This document shows, piece after piece, positions 50,209-56,926 of a stretch of 64,000 nt of DNA. The notes beneath the pieces are model-generated. The model made no database searches. It was not told where the DNA came from and was given only the letters and a program-made list of their open reading frames with translations. Position 1 is the first letter of the stretch. Each line of letters begins with the position of its first letter. The stretch spans positions 186,001 through 250,000 of the forward strand of contig NZ_FYEE01000007.1 of NCBI RefSeq assembly GCF_900187645.1. The letters run 5' to 3'. The position numbers and the translations under genes are program-made. This DNA comes from Pseudomonas sp. Irchel 3E20 (lineage in GTDB: Bacteria; Pseudomonadota; Gammaproteobacteria; Pseudomonadales; Pseudomonadaceae).

Positions 50209-50736
50209 TTATCCGGGGTTGAAGGGAGCATAGCCCGTCTCGGACAGCGGCTCGACGCACAGTGGGTCATCGACGCGGATGATGCCGCTGTGGATCACCC
50301 GGGCAGTGATTCCGCCATGGCCGCGTACTGCTTGAAAGGTGCCCAGGCCCAGGCGTTGCTCCAGGCGTGCGCAGGGCTGGCACCAGCCCGTAGTCTCGAA
50401 AATCGCCTGGCCGATGCGAAAGCGCCGGCCCTTGAGGCTGAACAGGTTGATACCGCTGATGACCAGGTTGCGCCGCAGGTCCTGGGCCTGGACGGGCTGC
50501 TGCGGTGCCCGGCCGAGCAAGGCGCTGATAACGGCCAGATGCTCCCACTGGATCAACGTCACCTGCCGTGCGTTGCGCGGGCCTGGCCGGGCATGATCGC
50601 CCGTCAGCCCCGCTTCGCGGCGGGCTTCGACGGCCTCCAGTTCGACCATGGCCCCGCGTGATTCGGGGCGCACGCCAATCCAACGCACCCGGCCCTGCTG
50701 CGGTACGTGGGCAATCAGCTCTTGCAAGGGGCTCAT
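50209..50736 (-). CDS. MOSC domain-containing protein
   Basis: A 175-residue MOSC protein related to the C-terminal part of molybdenum-cofactor sulphurases and to YiiM/YcbX. The GAMVELEAVEARREAGLTGDHA segment and the conserved Cys in GWCQPCARLE are present, followed by RGGVIARVI-like GGITARVIHSG. Such proteins bind the molybdenum cofactor, often for N-hydroxylated compound reduction. Its ATG (50736) shares a base with the stop of the upstream DUF1780 gene. Confidence 0.88.
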   Translation of the reverse strand: MSPLQELIAHVPQQGRVRWIGVRPESRGAMVELEAVEARREAGLTGDHARPGPRNARQVTLIQWEHLAVISALLGRAPQQPVQAQDLRRNLVISGINLFSLKGRRFRIGQAIFETTGWCQPCARLEQRLGLGTFQAVRGHGGITARVIHSGIIRVDDPLCVEPLSETGYAPFNPG

Positions 50737-51362
50737 CACAGGCTGATCCCGACATCGAACACGATGCTGCGCCCCAGGTTGTTGCGCAAAAAGTCCGGCG
50801 CGTCGGGGTGGGCGAACAGCACGCGGGCGAACGTGGGGCCCACCAGCGATAGCGAACGCCAGCCCTGGCGCAGGTATTCGGTGGGCGGCGGGAAGTGGCT
50901 GTTGAGGTCCAGCACTTCGCGCTTGAGGCTGGCGAAGGCGATGATGTCCAGTTCGCCCAGGTCCATGCCGCGCTCTTTATAGTTGTGGGCTTTTTTGCGC
51001 AGGGTCGGCGCCAGCCGCAGCAGGAAGTCGTTGGCCGGGATGCGTCGGGGCTTGGCTTCTCGGCGCACCAATTGGCTCAGGGAGAACGCCGTGCGCCGGC
51101 GCTGCAACTCGTCGCGCCATTCATCGTTGAGGCGCCGGCCCTCGTCTAGGACGAAAAACACCTCGAAATTGGCATCGCGAAACAGCACGTCCGGCGGTTC
51201 GCCCGCGGGGCTGAATTCTTCGAGGCGATAGGGGATGTTCAACCCCTGCAAAAGCCGCTGGCACACCCAGCGTTCACGCTCCCATTTGCGGGCGTTGGAC
51301 AAAAAGGCGTTGGCCTGCTCGGCCGCGATGGTCAGCAGGCGTAGGTAATCTGAGTCATCCAT
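50736..51362 (-). CDS. DUF1780 family protein, putative nuclease-like
   Basis: A 208-residue soluble protein of the DUF1780 family, conserved in Pseudomonas. It has a charged C-terminal region and the segment PPDVLFRDANFEVFFVLDEGRR (about 54-75), which has a PD-x-E spacing reminiscent of PD-(D/E)XK folds, although the lysine is not obvious. It overlaps the MOSC gene start. Function unknown; nuclease activity is only a guess from that motif. Confidence 0.8.
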   Translation of the reverse strand: MDDSDYLRLLTIAAEQANAFLSNARKWERERWVCQRLLQGLNIPYRLEEFSPAGEPPDVLFRDANFEVFFVLDEGRRLNDEWRDELQRRRTAFSLSQLVRREAKPRRIPANDFLLRLAPTLRKKAHNYKERGMDLGELDIIAFASLKREVLDLNSHFPPPTEYLRQGWRSLSLVGPTFARVLFAHPDAPDFLRNNLGRSIVFDVGISL

Positions 51363-51441
51363 CGCCCCAGCTTAGCGCCCAAATGGGCTTTTGAAGACCC
51401 CCCATTTTCCTGGCGCCGGCCGCAAACAGGCGAAACACCCC

Positions 51442-51477
51442 TGCACAAAACGGATAGCGATCTGCACAAAGCGGATA
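51442..51477 (+). promoter_or_regulatory. Tandem XylS/BenR-type operator upstream of benK
   Basis: Two direct repeats, TGCACAAAACGGATA (51442-51456) and TGCACAAAGCGGATA (51463-51477), each fit the XylS/BenR half-site TGCA-N6-GGNTA, with a 21-base period as in the TOL Pm promoter. A -10 candidate TACCCT lies 21 bases downstream. This predicts benzoate-inducible activation by an AraC-family BenR. Confidence 0.88.
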
Positions 51478-51577
51478 TTGCAGGGCGCAGGGCCTGCCTA
51501 CCCTGCGATGGCCTGCCTATAAAAACGAGGGCGTTCTCGCCCATCGTTTACAAAAACAACAACAAGAGACAGATGCC

Positions 51578-52918
51578 ATGCGCAAAATCGACGTTCATGA
51601 GGTTATCGACAAAGCTCGGTTCAACCGCTTCCACTGGATGGTGCTGTTCTGGTGTGCCTTGATTATCATTTTCGACGGCTACGACCTGGTGATTTACGGC
51701 GTGGTCCTGCCGGTACTGATGAAAGAGTGGGGCCTCACCCCCCTGGAGGCTGGGGCGCTGGGCAGTTATGCGTTGTTTGGCATGATGTTCGGGGCGCTGT
51801 TTTTTGGGCCGTTGTCCGACAAGATCGGGCGTAAGAAAGCCATCACCATTTGCGTCATCCTTTTTAGCGGCTTCACCGTGCTCAACGGTTTTGCCCGCAA
51901 CCCCACGGAATTCGGCATCTGCCGCTTCATTGCCGGGCTCGGCATTGGCGGGGTGATGCCCAATGTGGTGGCGCTGATGAACGAGTACGCGCCGAAGAAA
52001 ATCCGCAGCACCCTGGTGGCCATCATGTTCAGTGGCTATTCAGTGGGCGGCATGTTGTCGGCGGGCCTGGGCATTGTGCTGATCCCCAGTTTCGGCTGGC
52101 AGTCGGTGTTCTACGTGGCGGTGCTGCCGCTGCTGATGCTGCCGCTGATTATGTATTTCCTGCCGGAATCGGTGGGTTTCATGCTGCGCCAGGGCCGCAA
52201 CGAAGAAGCGCGCAAGGTGCTGGAGCGGGTCGACCCGGGCTACGTCGCGCAAAGCAGCGACCAACTGCACATGAGCGAAGTCAAAGGCACCGGCACCCCG
52301 GTGTTGCAGTTGTTCCGCGAAGGCCGCGCCGTGCGCACGCTGATGCTGTGGGTGGCGTTTTTCTGCTGCCTGCTGATGGTTTACGCCTTGAGTTCCTGGC
52401 TGCCGAAACTGATGGCCAACGCCGGCTACAGCCTGGGTTCGAGCCTGTCGTTCCTGTTGGTGCTCAACTTCGGCGCGATCTTCGGCGCGGTGGGCGGTGG
52501 CGTGCTGGGCGACAAGCTCAACCTGCCGCGGGTGCTGGCGGTGTTCTTCGCCGTGGCCGCCATCTCCATCACCTTGCTGGGCTTCAAGAGCCCGACGCCG
52601 GTGCTGTACCTGCTGATCGCCATTGCCGGGGCCACCACCATCGGTTCGCAGATTCTGCTGTACGCCTGCGCCGCGCAGTTCTACTCCATGGCCATTCGTT
52701 CCACGGGGCTTGGCTGGGCTTCCGGGATTGGCCGCAACGGCGCTATCGTCGGGCCACTACTGGGCGGGGCGTTGTTGGGCATCAGCCTGCCGCTGCAACT
52801 GAATTTCATGGCCTTTGCCGTACCGGGCGCGATTGCGGCGGTGGCGATGACCCTGTTTGCCATCAGCAGCCAACGTTCCACCCGCGCCACTGCGGCCCTG
52901 ACGCCCACCCGCGCCTGA
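51578..52918 (+). CDS. benK: BenK-like aromatic acid:H+ symporter (MFS)
   Basis: A 446-residue protein with 12 predicted membrane helices of the aromatic acid:H+ symporter family. The conserved intracellular loop DKIGRKKAI and the helix 1 motif FDGYDLVIYGVVLPVL (D34/D37 region) match BenK/PcaK transporters, which import benzoate or related acids. It opens a transport set with benE and an OprD-type porin and follows the BenR-type operator. ATG at 51578 after AGAGAC. Confidence 0.88.
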   Translation: MRKIDVHEVIDKARFNRFHWMVLFWCALIIIFDGYDLVIYGVVLPVLMKEWGLTPLEAGALGSYALFGMMFGALFFGPLSDKIGRKKAITICVILFSGFTVLNGFARNPTEFGICRFIAGLGIGGVMPNVVALMNEYAPKKIRSTLVAIMFSGYSVGGMLSAGLGIVLIPSFGWQSVFYVAVLPLLMLPLIMYFLPESVGFMLRQGRNEEARKVLERVDPGYVAQSSDQLHMSEVKGTGTPVLQLFREGRAVRTLMLWVAFFCCLLMVYALSSWLPKLMANAGYSLGSSLSFLLVLNFGAIFGAVGGGVLGDKLNLPRVLAVFFAVAAISITLLGFKSPTPVLYLLIAIAGATTIGSQILLYACAAQFYSMAIRSTGLGWASGIGRNGAIVGPLLGGALLGISLPLQLNFMAFAVPGAIAAVAMTLFAISSQRSTRATAALTPTRA

Positions 52919-52924
52919 GCCGGT

Positions 52925-52949
52925 GCGACACGGCGCAGTGCCGTGTCGC
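52925..52949. other. Perfect hairpin between benK and benE
   Basis: GCGACACGGC (52925-52934) and GCCGTGTCGC (52940-52949) can form a 10-base-pair stem in the benK-benE gap. No T-run follows, so a role in mRNA stability or partial termination is more likely than full termination. Confidence 0.6.
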
Positions 52950-53021
52950 CCACGTTCGATAGAACAAGAGCACCCGGGCCCTGTGCCACGGGTTGCCAGA
53001 TGAGTCTTGCGGTGAGGTGCC

Positions 53022-54233
53022 ATGAAAGCGTTTTTCCATGACTTTTCCCTGTCTGCGGCAGTGGCCGGGTTTATCGCCACGGTGATTTCCTATGCCGGGC
53101 CCTTGGTGATTATTTTCCAGGCTGCCGAAAGCGCGCAGATGCCCCGGGAGCTGCTGTCGTCCTGGGTTTGGGCGATTTCCATCGGCAGCGCCGTGTTGGG
53201 CATCGGCCTGAGCCTGCGCTACCGGGTGCCGGTGATTATTGCCTGGTCGGCGCCGGGTTCGGCGCTGCTGGTGGCGTTGCTGCCGGGGATTTCCATGGAA
53301 GAGGCCGTGGGCGCCTACCTGGTCAGTAGCCTGATTATTTTCGCAGTGGGCATTTGCGGGGCCTTCGACCGGATCATCAGCAAACTGCCCAGCGCCATTG
53401 CGGCGGCGATGCTGGCGGGGATTCTGTTCAGGTTCGGCACCGGCCTGTTCGTGTCCTTGCAGGGCAAGCCGTTGCTGGTGCTGGCGATGTTCGTCACCTA
53501 CCTGGTGTGCAAGCGCCTGCTGCCGCGCTATGCGGTGCTGATGGTGTTGTTGGTGGGTTGCGCTATCACGTTTGCCGCCGGCGATTTGCACCGTGAAGCC
53601 CTGGTCATTGGCCTGGCGACGCCGGTGTGGGTCACCCCGCAATTTAGCCTCAGCGCGACCCTTAATATCGCCTTGCCCCTGGTGATGGTGGCGCTGACCG
53701 GGCAGTTTGTGCCCGGCATGGCGGTGCTGCGCGCCAGCGGCTACAACACCCCGGCCAGCCCGATCATCGCCAGCAGTGCCCTGGGCACCGCGTTGCTGGC
53801 GCCGTTTGGTTGCCACGGGTTGAACCTGGCCGCCATCACCGCGGCCATCTGCACTGGCCGTGAGGCCCACGAAGACCCAAGCAAGCGCTACGTTGCCGGG
53901 GTGGTGGGCGGGCTGTTCTACCTGGTGCTGGGGATTTTTGGCGCCACCTTGGTTTCGCTGTTTTCGGCCTTTCCCAAGGAGCTGATCGCAGCGCTGGCGG
54001 GGCTGGCGTTGTTCGCCGCCATCGGCGGCGCCCTGGCCGGCGCCATGGCGGTGCCCAACGACCGCGAAGCGGCGCTGGTGACCTTCCTCACCACGGCCTC
54101 GGGTATGTCGCTGTTCGGTTTGTCCGCCGCATTCTGGGGCCTGATCTTCGGCATTGCCGCCCATGTCCTGCTCAACGCCCGGCGGCCCGCGCCGGTCGTG
54201 GCCGCCCCCGGCGAGGTGGCGCGCCGCCCCTGA
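53022..54233 (+). CDS. benE: BenE-family benzoate transporter
   Basis: A 403-residue membrane protein with about 12 hydrophobic segments of the BenE (benzoate:H+ symporter) family, distinct from the MFS. Recognisable motifs are WSAPGSALL, the NAT-like segments and GCHGLNLAAITAAICTGREAHEDPSKRYVAG. Redundant MFS and BenE uptake systems often sit together in Pseudomonas ben clusters. Start at ATG 53022 with GGTGAGG upstream. Confidence 0.92.
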   Translation: MKAFFHDFSLSAAVAGFIATVISYAGPLVIIFQAAESAQMPRELLSSWVWAISIGSAVLGIGLSLRYRVPVIIAWSAPGSALLVALLPGISMEEAVGAYLVSSLIIFAVGICGAFDRIISKLPSAIAAAMLAGILFRFGTGLFVSLQGKPLLVLAMFVTYLVCKRLLPRYAVLMVLLVGCAITFAAGDLHREALVIGLATPVWVTPQFSLSATLNIALPLVMVALTGQFVPGMAVLRASGYNTPASPIIASSALGTALLAPFGCHGLNLAAITAAICTGREAHEDPSKRYVAGVVGGLFYLVLGIFGATLVSLFSAFPKELIAALAGLALFAAIGGALAGAMAVPNDREAALVTFLTTASGMSLFGLSAAFWGLIFGIAAHVLLNARRPAPVVAAPGEVARRP

Positions 54234-54332
54234 TTCACGCCTGATTTTCCACCCCGTTCCCATGCCCTCGGCCGCCCGGGCGCTGCCGCGTTCGTGTGCC
54301 ACCTGTCGATCAATAACAATAAGAGCCAAACG

Positions 54333-55601
54333 ATGAAACAGACCTTCCAGAGCACCCCTTGCGTCCTGTCCCTGGCTATCGGCCTGGGCTGCTCCACCTC
54401 CGTGCTGGCCGCCGACAGCGGCTTTATCGAGGACACCACGGCGACCTTGCAGGCGCGTAACTACTACTTCAGCCGCGACTTTTCCGACATCGTCGGCGCC
54501 AATCAGCAGTCCAAGGCCGAGGAGTGGGCCCAGGGTTTTATCCTCAACGTTAAATCGGGCTACACCCAGGGCACCGTCGGTTTTGGCCTGGACGTGATCG
54601 GCTTGCTGGGGCTTAAGCTCGACAGCAGCCCCGATCGGGTCAACACCGGGTTGTTGCCGGTGCAGGACGACGGCCGCGCGGCGGATGACTACAGCCGCCT
54701 CGCCGGGGCGTTGAAAGTGCGCTTCTCCAAGACAGAACTGCGCATCGGCGAATTGCAGCCCAACCTGCCGGTGCTGGCCTTCAGTGATATCCGCCTGCTT
54801 CCCCCGAGTTATCAGGGGGCCAGCGTCACGTCCGGCGAAATCAACGGCTTGACCTTGCAGGGTGGCCATTTGAAATCCACCAGCCTGCGCAACGAGGCGG
54901 GCGACGACAAGATGCAAGCCATGCTCGGCCACGTGCCGCAACGCCAGGTCAGCAGCGACGGCTTCAACTTTGCCGGGGCCGACTATGTGTTCAACGACAA
55001 ACGCACCTCGGCCAGCGCTTGGTTCGGCCAGTTGGAAGACATCTACCACCAGCGCTTTTTGGGCCTCAAGCACAGCGAACCGATGGGCGACTGGACCCTG
55101 GGGGCCAACCTAGGCTTTTACGATTCGCGCGAAGACGGCAAAAAACTACTGGGCAACATCGACAACCAGGCGTTTTTCTCCCTGCTGTCGGCCAAGCGCG
55201 GCGGCCACACCTTTTACGTCGGCTACCAGGGGATGTTCGGCGACAGCGCGTTCCCGCGGGTGTTCGCCAACGTCACCCCCCTGGGCAACGAAGTGCCCAC
55301 CTATGAATTTGCCTACACCGACGAACGCTCCTGGCAGGTGCGCCACGACTACGATTTCGCCGCCCTGGGCGTGCCCGGCCTGACCAGCACCGTGCGTTAC
55401 ATTTCCGGTAACAACGTCGACACCGGCAAGGGGTTCGAGGGCAAGGACCGCGAGCGCGACCTGGACCTGGGCTACGTGATCCAGAGCGGCACCCTCAAAG
55501 GCCTGGGCATGCGCGTGCGCAACGTGATGGCGCGTTCCAACTACCGCAGCGATATCGACGAAAACCGCCTGACCCTCAGCTACACCTGGACCCTGCTGTG
55601 A
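54333..55601 (+). CDS. benF: OprD/BenF-like outer-membrane porin
   Basis: A 422-residue OprD-family porin with a signal peptide ([20 protein letters not shown]). The mature protein starts [22 protein letters not shown] and ends with [10 protein letters not shown], the usual C-terminal aromatic-rich strand. OprD family channels take up amino acids or aromatic acids; its position after benK-benE suggests BenF-like benzoate specificity. The ATG at 54333 is preceded by AATAAGAGCC. Confidence 0.88.
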
Positions 55602-55662
55602 CCGGCGCCGGGGCGGCCAACCTGGCGTTGGCCTGGCGCGGCGCCAATCGGTTGCGGCGGGC

Positions 55663-55872
55663 TTAGGCCGGGCCGCCGCAATCGCCCATCACCATATAAG
55701 TGACGCTATGGGTTTGCCCTTGGTGGTCGATATAGACCATGGTGGCCGGTACCACGTCGCAGACGTTGGGGATATCGCTGATAGACACGACTTTGGCGAC
55801 GTCCAGGGTGGGTTCGCCGGCCAGGGCGCCGGTGGCGACAAGGGCGAGGAACAGACTGAGCAGGGTTTTCAT
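55663..55872 (-). CDS. DUF2790 family small exported protein
   Basis: A 69-residue protein with signal peptide (MKTLLSLFLALVATGALAGE) and the DUF2790 core LDVAKVVSISDIPNVCDVVPATMVYIDHQGQTHSVTYMVMGDCG. Two cysteines are present in the mature part. Such proteins are numerous in Pseudomonas and respond to copper or other stress in some species; this one has no evident partner here. Confidence 0.85.
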   Translation of the reverse strand: MKTLLSLFLALVATGALAGEPTLDVAKVVSISDIPNVCDVVPATMVYIDHQGQTHSVTYMVMGDCGGPA

Positions 55873-55993
55873 GGTGGCCTCTTGTATATGTGAGCTGATG
55901 TGTACAGTTTAGCCCTCGCGGCTGTAGGAAAAAGCCGCGTTCGCCTGATGCAGCCTTACATCAAACGCAACAGTCACAGGCCCCGGAGGCTTT

Positions 55994-56926
55994 ATGGATG
56001 TACTCAATAGCCTGCGGGTGTTCGTGCAGGTGGTCGATAGCGGCAGCTTTACGGCTGCGGCACAGGCCCTGGATCTTTCGACCGCGCAGGTCTCGCGCCT
56101 GGTGGCGGACCTGGAGCAGCACGTGCAGGCGCGCCTGCTGCAACGCACCACCCGGCGCCTGGGCCTGACTGACGCCGGCGAGCGCTTTTTGCTGCGCGGG
56201 CGGCAGATCCTCGAAGAAATGCAAGTGGCCACCGCCGAAGCCCGTGGCGCCCACCTCAAGCCCAGCGGGCGCTTGCGCGTGCATACCCTGCACGGCCTCG
56301 GCATGCTGATAACCCCGCTGATCGCCCGCTACTGCGAGCTGTACCCGGACGTGGTGTTCGAACTGAGCCTGTCCCAGCGCAACCCCGACCCGTTGGAAGA
56401 AGGCCACGACGTGGTGATTTCCATCGCCCAGGAACTGGCCGATTCCCAGTTCGTCGCCCAGGTCATCGGGCAGATCTACAGCGCGCCGTTCGCCTCGCCC
56501 GCGTATCTGCAGCGCCACGGTGTGCCGGCCAGCCCGGCGGCGCTGAACGAGCACCGCTGCTTGCGCTTGCTCGACCCGATGTACAGCGACCAATGGCAGT
56601 TTCACGATGCGGAGGGCGAGCAGGGCGTCCTGCCGGGGCCGACCTTCCAAAGCAACGTCGCTGAATCCATGGTCAACGCCTCGGAGGCGGGCATGGGCGT
56701 GAGCCTGGTGCCGTTCTACGCCGCCACCCGCCCGCTCAGTGAAGGCCGCTTGCTGCGTTTGCTGCCCGCCTATCGCCTGCGCGAGCGCAACGTCTACGCG
56801 CTGTACCCGTCGCGGCGCTTTCTCGACGCCAAGGTGCGCACCTGGGTGGACTTTCTCCAGGCTGAGCTGCCCCAAGTCTTCGCCGCGCACGAAGCGGTGA
56901 TGAACGACCCGCGACACTGGGCTTGA
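55994..56926 (+). CDS. LysR-family transcriptional regulator
   Basis: A 310-residue regulator with an N-terminal winged helix-turn-helix (residues 1-60: MDVLNSLRVFVQVVDSGSFTAAAQAL, STAQVSRLVADLEQHV) and a substrate-binding domain (about 90-300). The signature TTRRLGLTDAGERF is intact. It is transcribed from a 121-base gap away from the DUF2790 gene and does not sit near a ben-type operator, so it is probably not BenR or BenM. Targets are unknown. Confidence 0.9.
   Translation: MDVLNSLRVFVQVVDSGSFTAAAQALDLSTAQVSRLVADLEQHVQARLLQRTTRRLGLTDAGERFLLRGRQILEEMQVATAEARGAHLKPSGRLRVHTLHGLGMLITPLIARYCELYPDVVFELSLSQRNPDPLEEGHDVVISIAQELADSQFVAQVIGQIYSAPFASPAYLQRHGVPASPAALNEHRCLRLLDPMYSDQWQFHDAEGEQGVLPGPTFQSNVAESMVNASEAGMGVSLVPFYAATRPLSEGRLLRLLPAYRLRERNVYALYPSRRFLDAKVRTWVDFLQAELPQVFAAHEAVMNDPRHWA

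Follow-up and report, generated by a model that had tools for sequence, protein, structure and literature searches.

The DNA at positions 51442-51504 of the window (the whole stretch of 64,000 nucleotides from Pseudomonas sp. Irchel 3E20 examined in this study) is, with a probability of roughly 0.9, a BenR-dependent promoter of the Pm/Pben type that belongs to a separate benK-benE-benF operon and is switched on with benABCD. BenR binding, induction by benzoate, and the direction and strength of the effect at benK are predictions from the DNA sequence. In the proposed mechanism, benzoate-bound BenR, produced from the benR gene beside benABCD on another contig, would bind the proximal and then the distal repeat and would contact RNA polymerase at a promoter with a -10 hexamer of TACCCT and no recognisable sigma-70 -35 box, and the uptake genes would be turned on together with benABCD. 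Occupation of the proximal repeat first and the distal one second, with bending and RNA polymerase contact, is described in the accessible part of PMC5481539.

The window promoter is an ordinary switch of a known type with an informative history. Both BenR/Pben and XylS/Pm are already known (PMC1360089, PMC6449761, PMC2907835, PMC8711041, PMC5481539; excerpts of each), and a literature search that covered titles and abstract openings, with most subscription journals outside its reach, found no BenR operator before a separate benK operon. According to an excerpt of PMC6449761, predicted BenR sites from five Pseudomonas species, P. fluorescens included, were used there as 'data not shown', and the operator sites of these species may thus have been familiar to its authors.

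The operator, its predicted regulator and the genes downstream

The sequence-only reading had described a tandem at 51442-51477 with a 21-base period, both halves fitting TGCA-N6-GGNTA and differing at one base, and this description is confirmed. The half-sites TGCACAAAACGGATA and TGCACAAAGCGGATA are direct repeats separated by 6 bp that differ by a single mismatch at position 9, and the -10-like hexamer lies at the same distance as at Pm (Table 1). The half-site consensus was taken from the available portions of PMC6449761 and PMC1360089, and the spacing from Pm. A putative third half-site 21 bp upstream (51421-51435) was rejected; the resulting tandem would have 3 mismatches. A sigma-70 promoter scan of 50600-56200 found none, a result that is expected for the XylS/BenR promoter class and lends no support to the assignment.

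Table 1. Positions of the operator, neighbouring genes and leader elements in the window, and of two chemoreceptor frames in related loci
Feature	Position	Strand	Basis or remark
DUF1780 gene, divergent, upstream border of the benKEF location	50736..51362	-	
Promoter-distal BenR/XylS half-site TGCACAAAACGGATA (predicted)	51442..51456	+	sequence
Spacer GCGATC between half-sites, 6 bp, 21-bp period	51457..51462	+	sequence
Promoter-proximal half-site TGCACAAAGCGGATA (predicted), TGCA form	51463..51477	+	sequence
-10-like hexamer TACCCT	51499..51504	+	starts 21 nt past operator
Short hairpin GGGCG-TTCT-CGCCC in 5' leader	51529..51542	+	sequence
A-rich tract at the ribosome-binding site, containing AACAACAAGAGA and matching AANAANAA	51552..51569	+	
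benK-like aromatic acid/H+ symporter, 446 aa	51578..52918	+	TIGR00895 above cut-off, MFS_1
benE, benzoate/H+ symporter, 403 aa	53022..54233	+	TIGR00843 above cut-off, PF03594
benF-like OprD-family porin	54333..55601	+	PF03573; ATG start picked by analyst
22-codon open stub overlapping benF stop	55598..55666	+	weak chemoreceptor N-terminus likeness
LysR-family regulator gene	55994..56926	+	often but not always beside benKEF
Chemoreceptor frames after benF in relatives	L174:12254-13141, L141:8849-9736		

The identification of benK-benE-benF downstream was borne out by family models and by the structural relatives of the porin. The benK-like protein scores 427.7 against TIGR00895 (cut-off 418.55), a model of aromatic acid/H+ symporters rather than of BenK alone, and falls below the PcaK (4-hydroxybenzoate transporter) equivalog NF053517.1 (287.1 against 770). 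BenE scores 458.7 against TIGR00843 (cut-off 203.4), and the BenF-like porin 511.4 against PF03573 (cut-off 25), which models the OprD family rather than BenF alone; the best solved relatives of the porin are 4ft6 ('Probable porin') and 3jty ('BenF-like porin'). Gene order and strand suggest that the three genes share one transcript. The terminator scan gave 8 terminator-like stems compared to 6.3 in shuffles and found no clear terminator; the leader hairpin scored as such a stem on the minus strand, where stems were at shuffle level.

A BenR encoded elsewhere had been predicted, and the gene is present: an AraC-type benR lies at C11:23131-24084, on a different contig from the window operator, and is followed by benABCD. 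Its product is 58-61% identical to annotated XylS proteins (61.2, 58.9, 58.9, 58.4 and 58.5% for five of them, over 99-100% of the length), while its next-best paralogue in the genome is 31% identical. Both parts of the protein are about 59% identical to XylS of plasmid pWW0 (123/208 and 64/109). Among the XylS positions that we take to contact DNA (R242, N246, E249, K250, R296, E299, R302), BenR keeps R242, E249, R296 and R302 and has S, R and Q at N246, K250 and E299. The BenR protein matched no NCBIfam equivalog, and benA, benB, benC, benD and, further upstream, catA are all above equivalog cut-offs.

The same repeats had been expected before benABCD, and a second 36-mer, letter for letter that of the window, sits between the AraC-type gene and benA. 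The two operators share 43 identical bp in all and diverge sharply after that. The benA promoter of this genome consists of the operator, 21 nt and TAGCAT, and the distance from operator to start codon is 64 nt at benA compared to 100 nt at benK.

Like the window, the XylS/Pm system of TOL plasmid pWW0 (NC_003350.1) has two TGCA-N6-GGNTA half-sites with a 6-bp spacer, its -10 (TAGGCT) starts 21 nt downstream as the TACCCT of the window does, and its XylS is 58.9% identical to the BenR of this genome. Unlike the window promoter, pWW0 Pm drives the plasmid meta-pathway, with regulator and promoter on one plasmid, and the letters of the half-sites and the -10 differ. A further counterpart is BenR/Pben before benABCD (P. 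fluorescens MB214, PMC1360089; P. putida, PMC6449761; parts of both), which has the same regulator and operator type. However, the window copy precedes transporter genes where Pben precedes the dioxygenase, the -10 is TACCCT as opposed to TAGCAT, and the MB214 sites are printed 5 bp apart in the portion of PMC1360089 available, compared to 6 bp in the window. The ben cluster of P. putida KT2440 (benABCD, benK, benE-II, nicP-I, catA-II), as given in an excerpt of PMC8711041, likewise groups transport genes with genes under BenR/Pben control; there they lie inside the benABCD cluster, whereas the window strain has a distant operon with an operator of its own.

Rarity of the operator and its distribution across the genus

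The tandem is the only one without mismatches in the 64-kb window, shuffles of which contain a mean of 0.45 tandems with up to 3 mismatches. A genome-wide search (5.3 Mb on 35 contigs) found two sites with up to 2 mismatches, the one in the window and the one before benA (G000:C11:24193-24228), and no third; a reversed control pattern gave one match at the same tolerance. Of 298 genomes of the genus, 116 contain the exact tandem, at 123 sites in total, only part of which were traced to genes; the reversed pattern has no exact match. In one genome (G204) an exact tandem with divergent letters (L139:2514-2549; G204:C21:131013) lies 75 bp before an amino-acid permease frame, with a gene for a FAD-binding-domain protein adjoining, and possibly belongs to another XylS-like regulon.

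Matches to benK (E <= 1e-170) were found in 116 of the 298 genomes and matches to benA (E <= 1e-220) in 143. For 57 of these 116 genomes the upstream DNA was read, at the best benK of each and not at any less similar second copy. Genomes were classed as separated if their benK is at least 91% identical to that of the window and is distant from benA or located on a different contig; several of these assemblies are drafts. The operator (0-2 mismatches) precedes benK in all 38 separated genomes, and a -10 follows exactly 21 nt past it in each (TACCCT in 34, TAGCAT in 3, TACCAT in 1). It was also present in all eight genomes with other separated arrangements, with 2 mismatches in G096, G285, G271 and G007, 1 in G126, G116 and G198, and 0 in G292. 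In both genomes in which benF was observed to have moved alone (G092, G071), an exact operator points at benF beyond catR; in G073 an exact operator at the corresponding place points off the contig end, and benF was not seen.

Where benK follows benC or benD, the operator is absent from all 11 genomes (G071, G092, G272, G266, G093, G260, G060, G069, G227, G278 and G181), the best sites in the 450 nt upstream having 6-7 mismatches. A twelfth attached case, G073, has no site with up to 2 mismatches between benD and benK. The regulatory part of the sequence-only reading is thus supported, as in the genomes read the operator is kept with a separated benK and absent where benK lies inside the benABCD cluster. 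In P. stutzeri A1501, where benK adjoins benD, no RT-PCR product spanning benD and benK was obtained (PMC2907835, in the part available), and therefore Pben need not be the promoter of every benK that lacks this operator.

Two apparent exceptions were rejected. In G181, benK follows benC at the start of a contig and was counted as attached, with benD not seen. In G198, an operator with 1 mismatch lies one gene further upstream, ahead of a benF-like gene that is followed by benK and benE. There (L144:2935-3090) a short remnant of a benK start (MREVDVHAV) comes after the operator and leader and ahead of the benF-like gene. Two benR-like genes occur in the G007 cluster (G007:C7, L142), with 60% and 70% identity to the BenR of the window strain; benK-benF follows one of them and benA the other.

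That the operator is a chance match without function is so improbable that it can practically be dismissed. Short degenerate motifs do arise by chance, and single half-sites occur elsewhere in the window. In addition, not every exact tandem in the genus stands before a ben gene; that of G286 precedes a LysR gene. However, in 650 control windows, each 450 nt long, covering both strands and excluding ben genes, no site with up to 2 mismatches occurred, and three of them contained a site with 3; the reversed pattern is missing from all 298 genomes; and conservation of the operator follows gene arrangement, which argues for function over chance.

It is very improbable that the LysR regulator encoded downstream (Table 1), rather than BenR, controls benKEF and that the repeats are relics of how the promoter arose. 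LysR regulators often control neighbouring genes, and many, although not all, of the loci read have this LysR gene beside benKEF; such loci occur at both kinds of chromosomal place seen. Against this, no match to the LysR gene was found beside benKEF in G297, G049, G167, G038, G251, G129 and G131 (C23), loci that have both an operator (1-2 mismatches) and a correctly placed -10, and conservation of the operator and of its -10 spacing in 38 of 38 separated operons is unlike a relic. Control by BenR is the preferred reading. Because the operator is found with the transport genes, the regulon appears intact despite the separation, which indicates that a benzoate regulon can stay intact with its transport genes outside the cluster.

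Operator variants and history of the locus

An exact search had suggested that operators are rare before separated benK genes, a result that was rejected as an artefact of demanding TGCA. A strict-consensus search misses 36 of the 38 because their proximal box A is TGCG; TGCA is found there only in the window strain and G204. With 36 of 38 relatives off the consensus at this one base, the strict consensus is evidently not required at that position. The distal half-site has TGCA in 37 of 38 and GGATA in 38 of 38, GCGATC is the commonest benK spacer (20 of 38), and the benA operators of the same 38 genomes all have TGCA. These natural variants (TGCA versus TGCG, 38 genomes read) could be used to study the site requirements of XylS and BenR, and the window promoter gives biotechnology a second candidate for benzoate-inducible expression, one whose A-rich leader is longer.

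When the benK and benA operators of one genome are compared, 37 genomes show 4-12 differences over the 36 positions, and the window strain alone shows none. The exact 36-mer of the window is also found before benA in G266 and G027, where benK is near benA. In a tree of 42 BenK proteins (33 from the 38 genomes), the window strain (G000) branches first among the 33 separated proteins, with support of 99/92 for the separated group and a modest 89/76 for the rest without G000; the TGCA/TGCG difference requires two changes on this tree. The simplest reading of the sequences is that an ancestral operator has been retained at both places. The alternative, that the two 36-mers recently became identical through gene conversion or through copying of one promoter (benA or benK) into the other, is unlikely but deserves attention, given that the window genome alone among 38 has zero differences. 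On the other side stand the sharp end of identity after 43 bp, the same 36-mer at benA in the two genomes with benK near benA, and the early, modestly supported branching of the window strain.

In the proposed history, benKEF would have landed between DUF1780 and the thio/up57451-coaE-pilD genes with a Pben operator that it had either retained or acquired as a copy, and in the window strain the operator would still be unchanged in both places. DUF1780 lies upstream within about 3.2 kb in 18 of the 22 separated loci that were read more widely (window included); it is located elsewhere in G128 and G204, and was not found in the stretch read in G232 and G083. The same chromosomal place lacks benKEF in four relatives (G084, G019, G266, G156) and in G237, which has about 4.7 kb of other DNA instead. 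The empty place in relatives indicates that benKEF was probably inserted or relocated as a block.

Leader elements and a candidate chemoreceptor link

The motif AANAANAA, presumably a Crc/Hfq target, lies within -40 to +6 of the benK start in 37 of the 38 separated genomes (the exception being G172) and at benA in all 38. In the window it has 33 matches on both strands and, among 12 gene starts, occurs at benK and benF only. Catabolite control of the window's benK is likely, with the A-rich tract at the benK start probably adding translational carbon-catabolite control by Hfq/Crc. In P. putida, Crc inhibits translation of benR mRNA and presumably acts on the benK operon as well (PMC8711041, available in part).

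Most of the separated relatives read have a conserved inverted repeat, CGGCTGTACGGACGTTAGCCG, just downstream of the benK -10 and over the presumed transcription start (L038-L066), with some paired changes. It is absent from the window, G204, G128 and G232, and was rejected as part of the window finding for that reason. Across 13 hand-chosen distinct leaders, its covariation score was 0.215 compared to 0.115 in shuffles (reached by 0 of 500), but pairs with changes in both partners numbered 2 compared to 1.4 (reached by 200 of 500).

A match to a protein with an MCP signalling domain lies after benF in six of the 22 separated loci read beyond that gene (G172, G046, G128, G204, G129, G225). This chemoreceptor-domain gene is a candidate link between benzoate uptake and chemotaxis in some relatives. 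For G172 and G204 the Pfam domain was confirmed in a frame of 295 aa, which overlaps the benF stop (Table 1); the matches in G046 and G129 lack the first 83 residues, and that of G046 contains a stop. The contig of G083 ends 0.9 kb past benF. It is possible that the 22-codon stub after benF in the window is a chemoreceptor remnant, its likeness to the chemoreceptor N-terminus being weak (17 of 1000 shuffles score as high).

In G126 (L146:1719-2671; G126:C5:104218-105170), an MCP frame is preceded by an exact operator with TAGCCT 21 nt past it, and by an A-rich leader. This chemoreceptor begins MRNIDVHEVIDK, compared to MRKIDVHEVIDK in the window's BenK, and 11 of the first 12 residues of its start (MRNIDVHEVIDKP) are those of the window BenK, an apparent fusion of the promoter and start codons of benK to a chemoreceptor gene. 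A tentative extension, which we consider somewhat doubtful, is that the benK promoter, leader and first codons form a portable benzoate-response cassette. Copied from Pben, it may have been carried to, or duplicated before, transport genes that moved (benKEF, benF, benF-benK-benE), and on one occasion an in-frame fusion may have joined it to the gene of a small chemoreceptor. Elsewhere the chemoreceptor would be the fourth gene of the benKEF operon, BenR coupling uptake to chemotaxis-type signalling, and the window strain would have kept the ancestral operator and lost the chemoreceptor.

As a separate observation, related chemoreceptor genes also lie after benF in G092 and G009.
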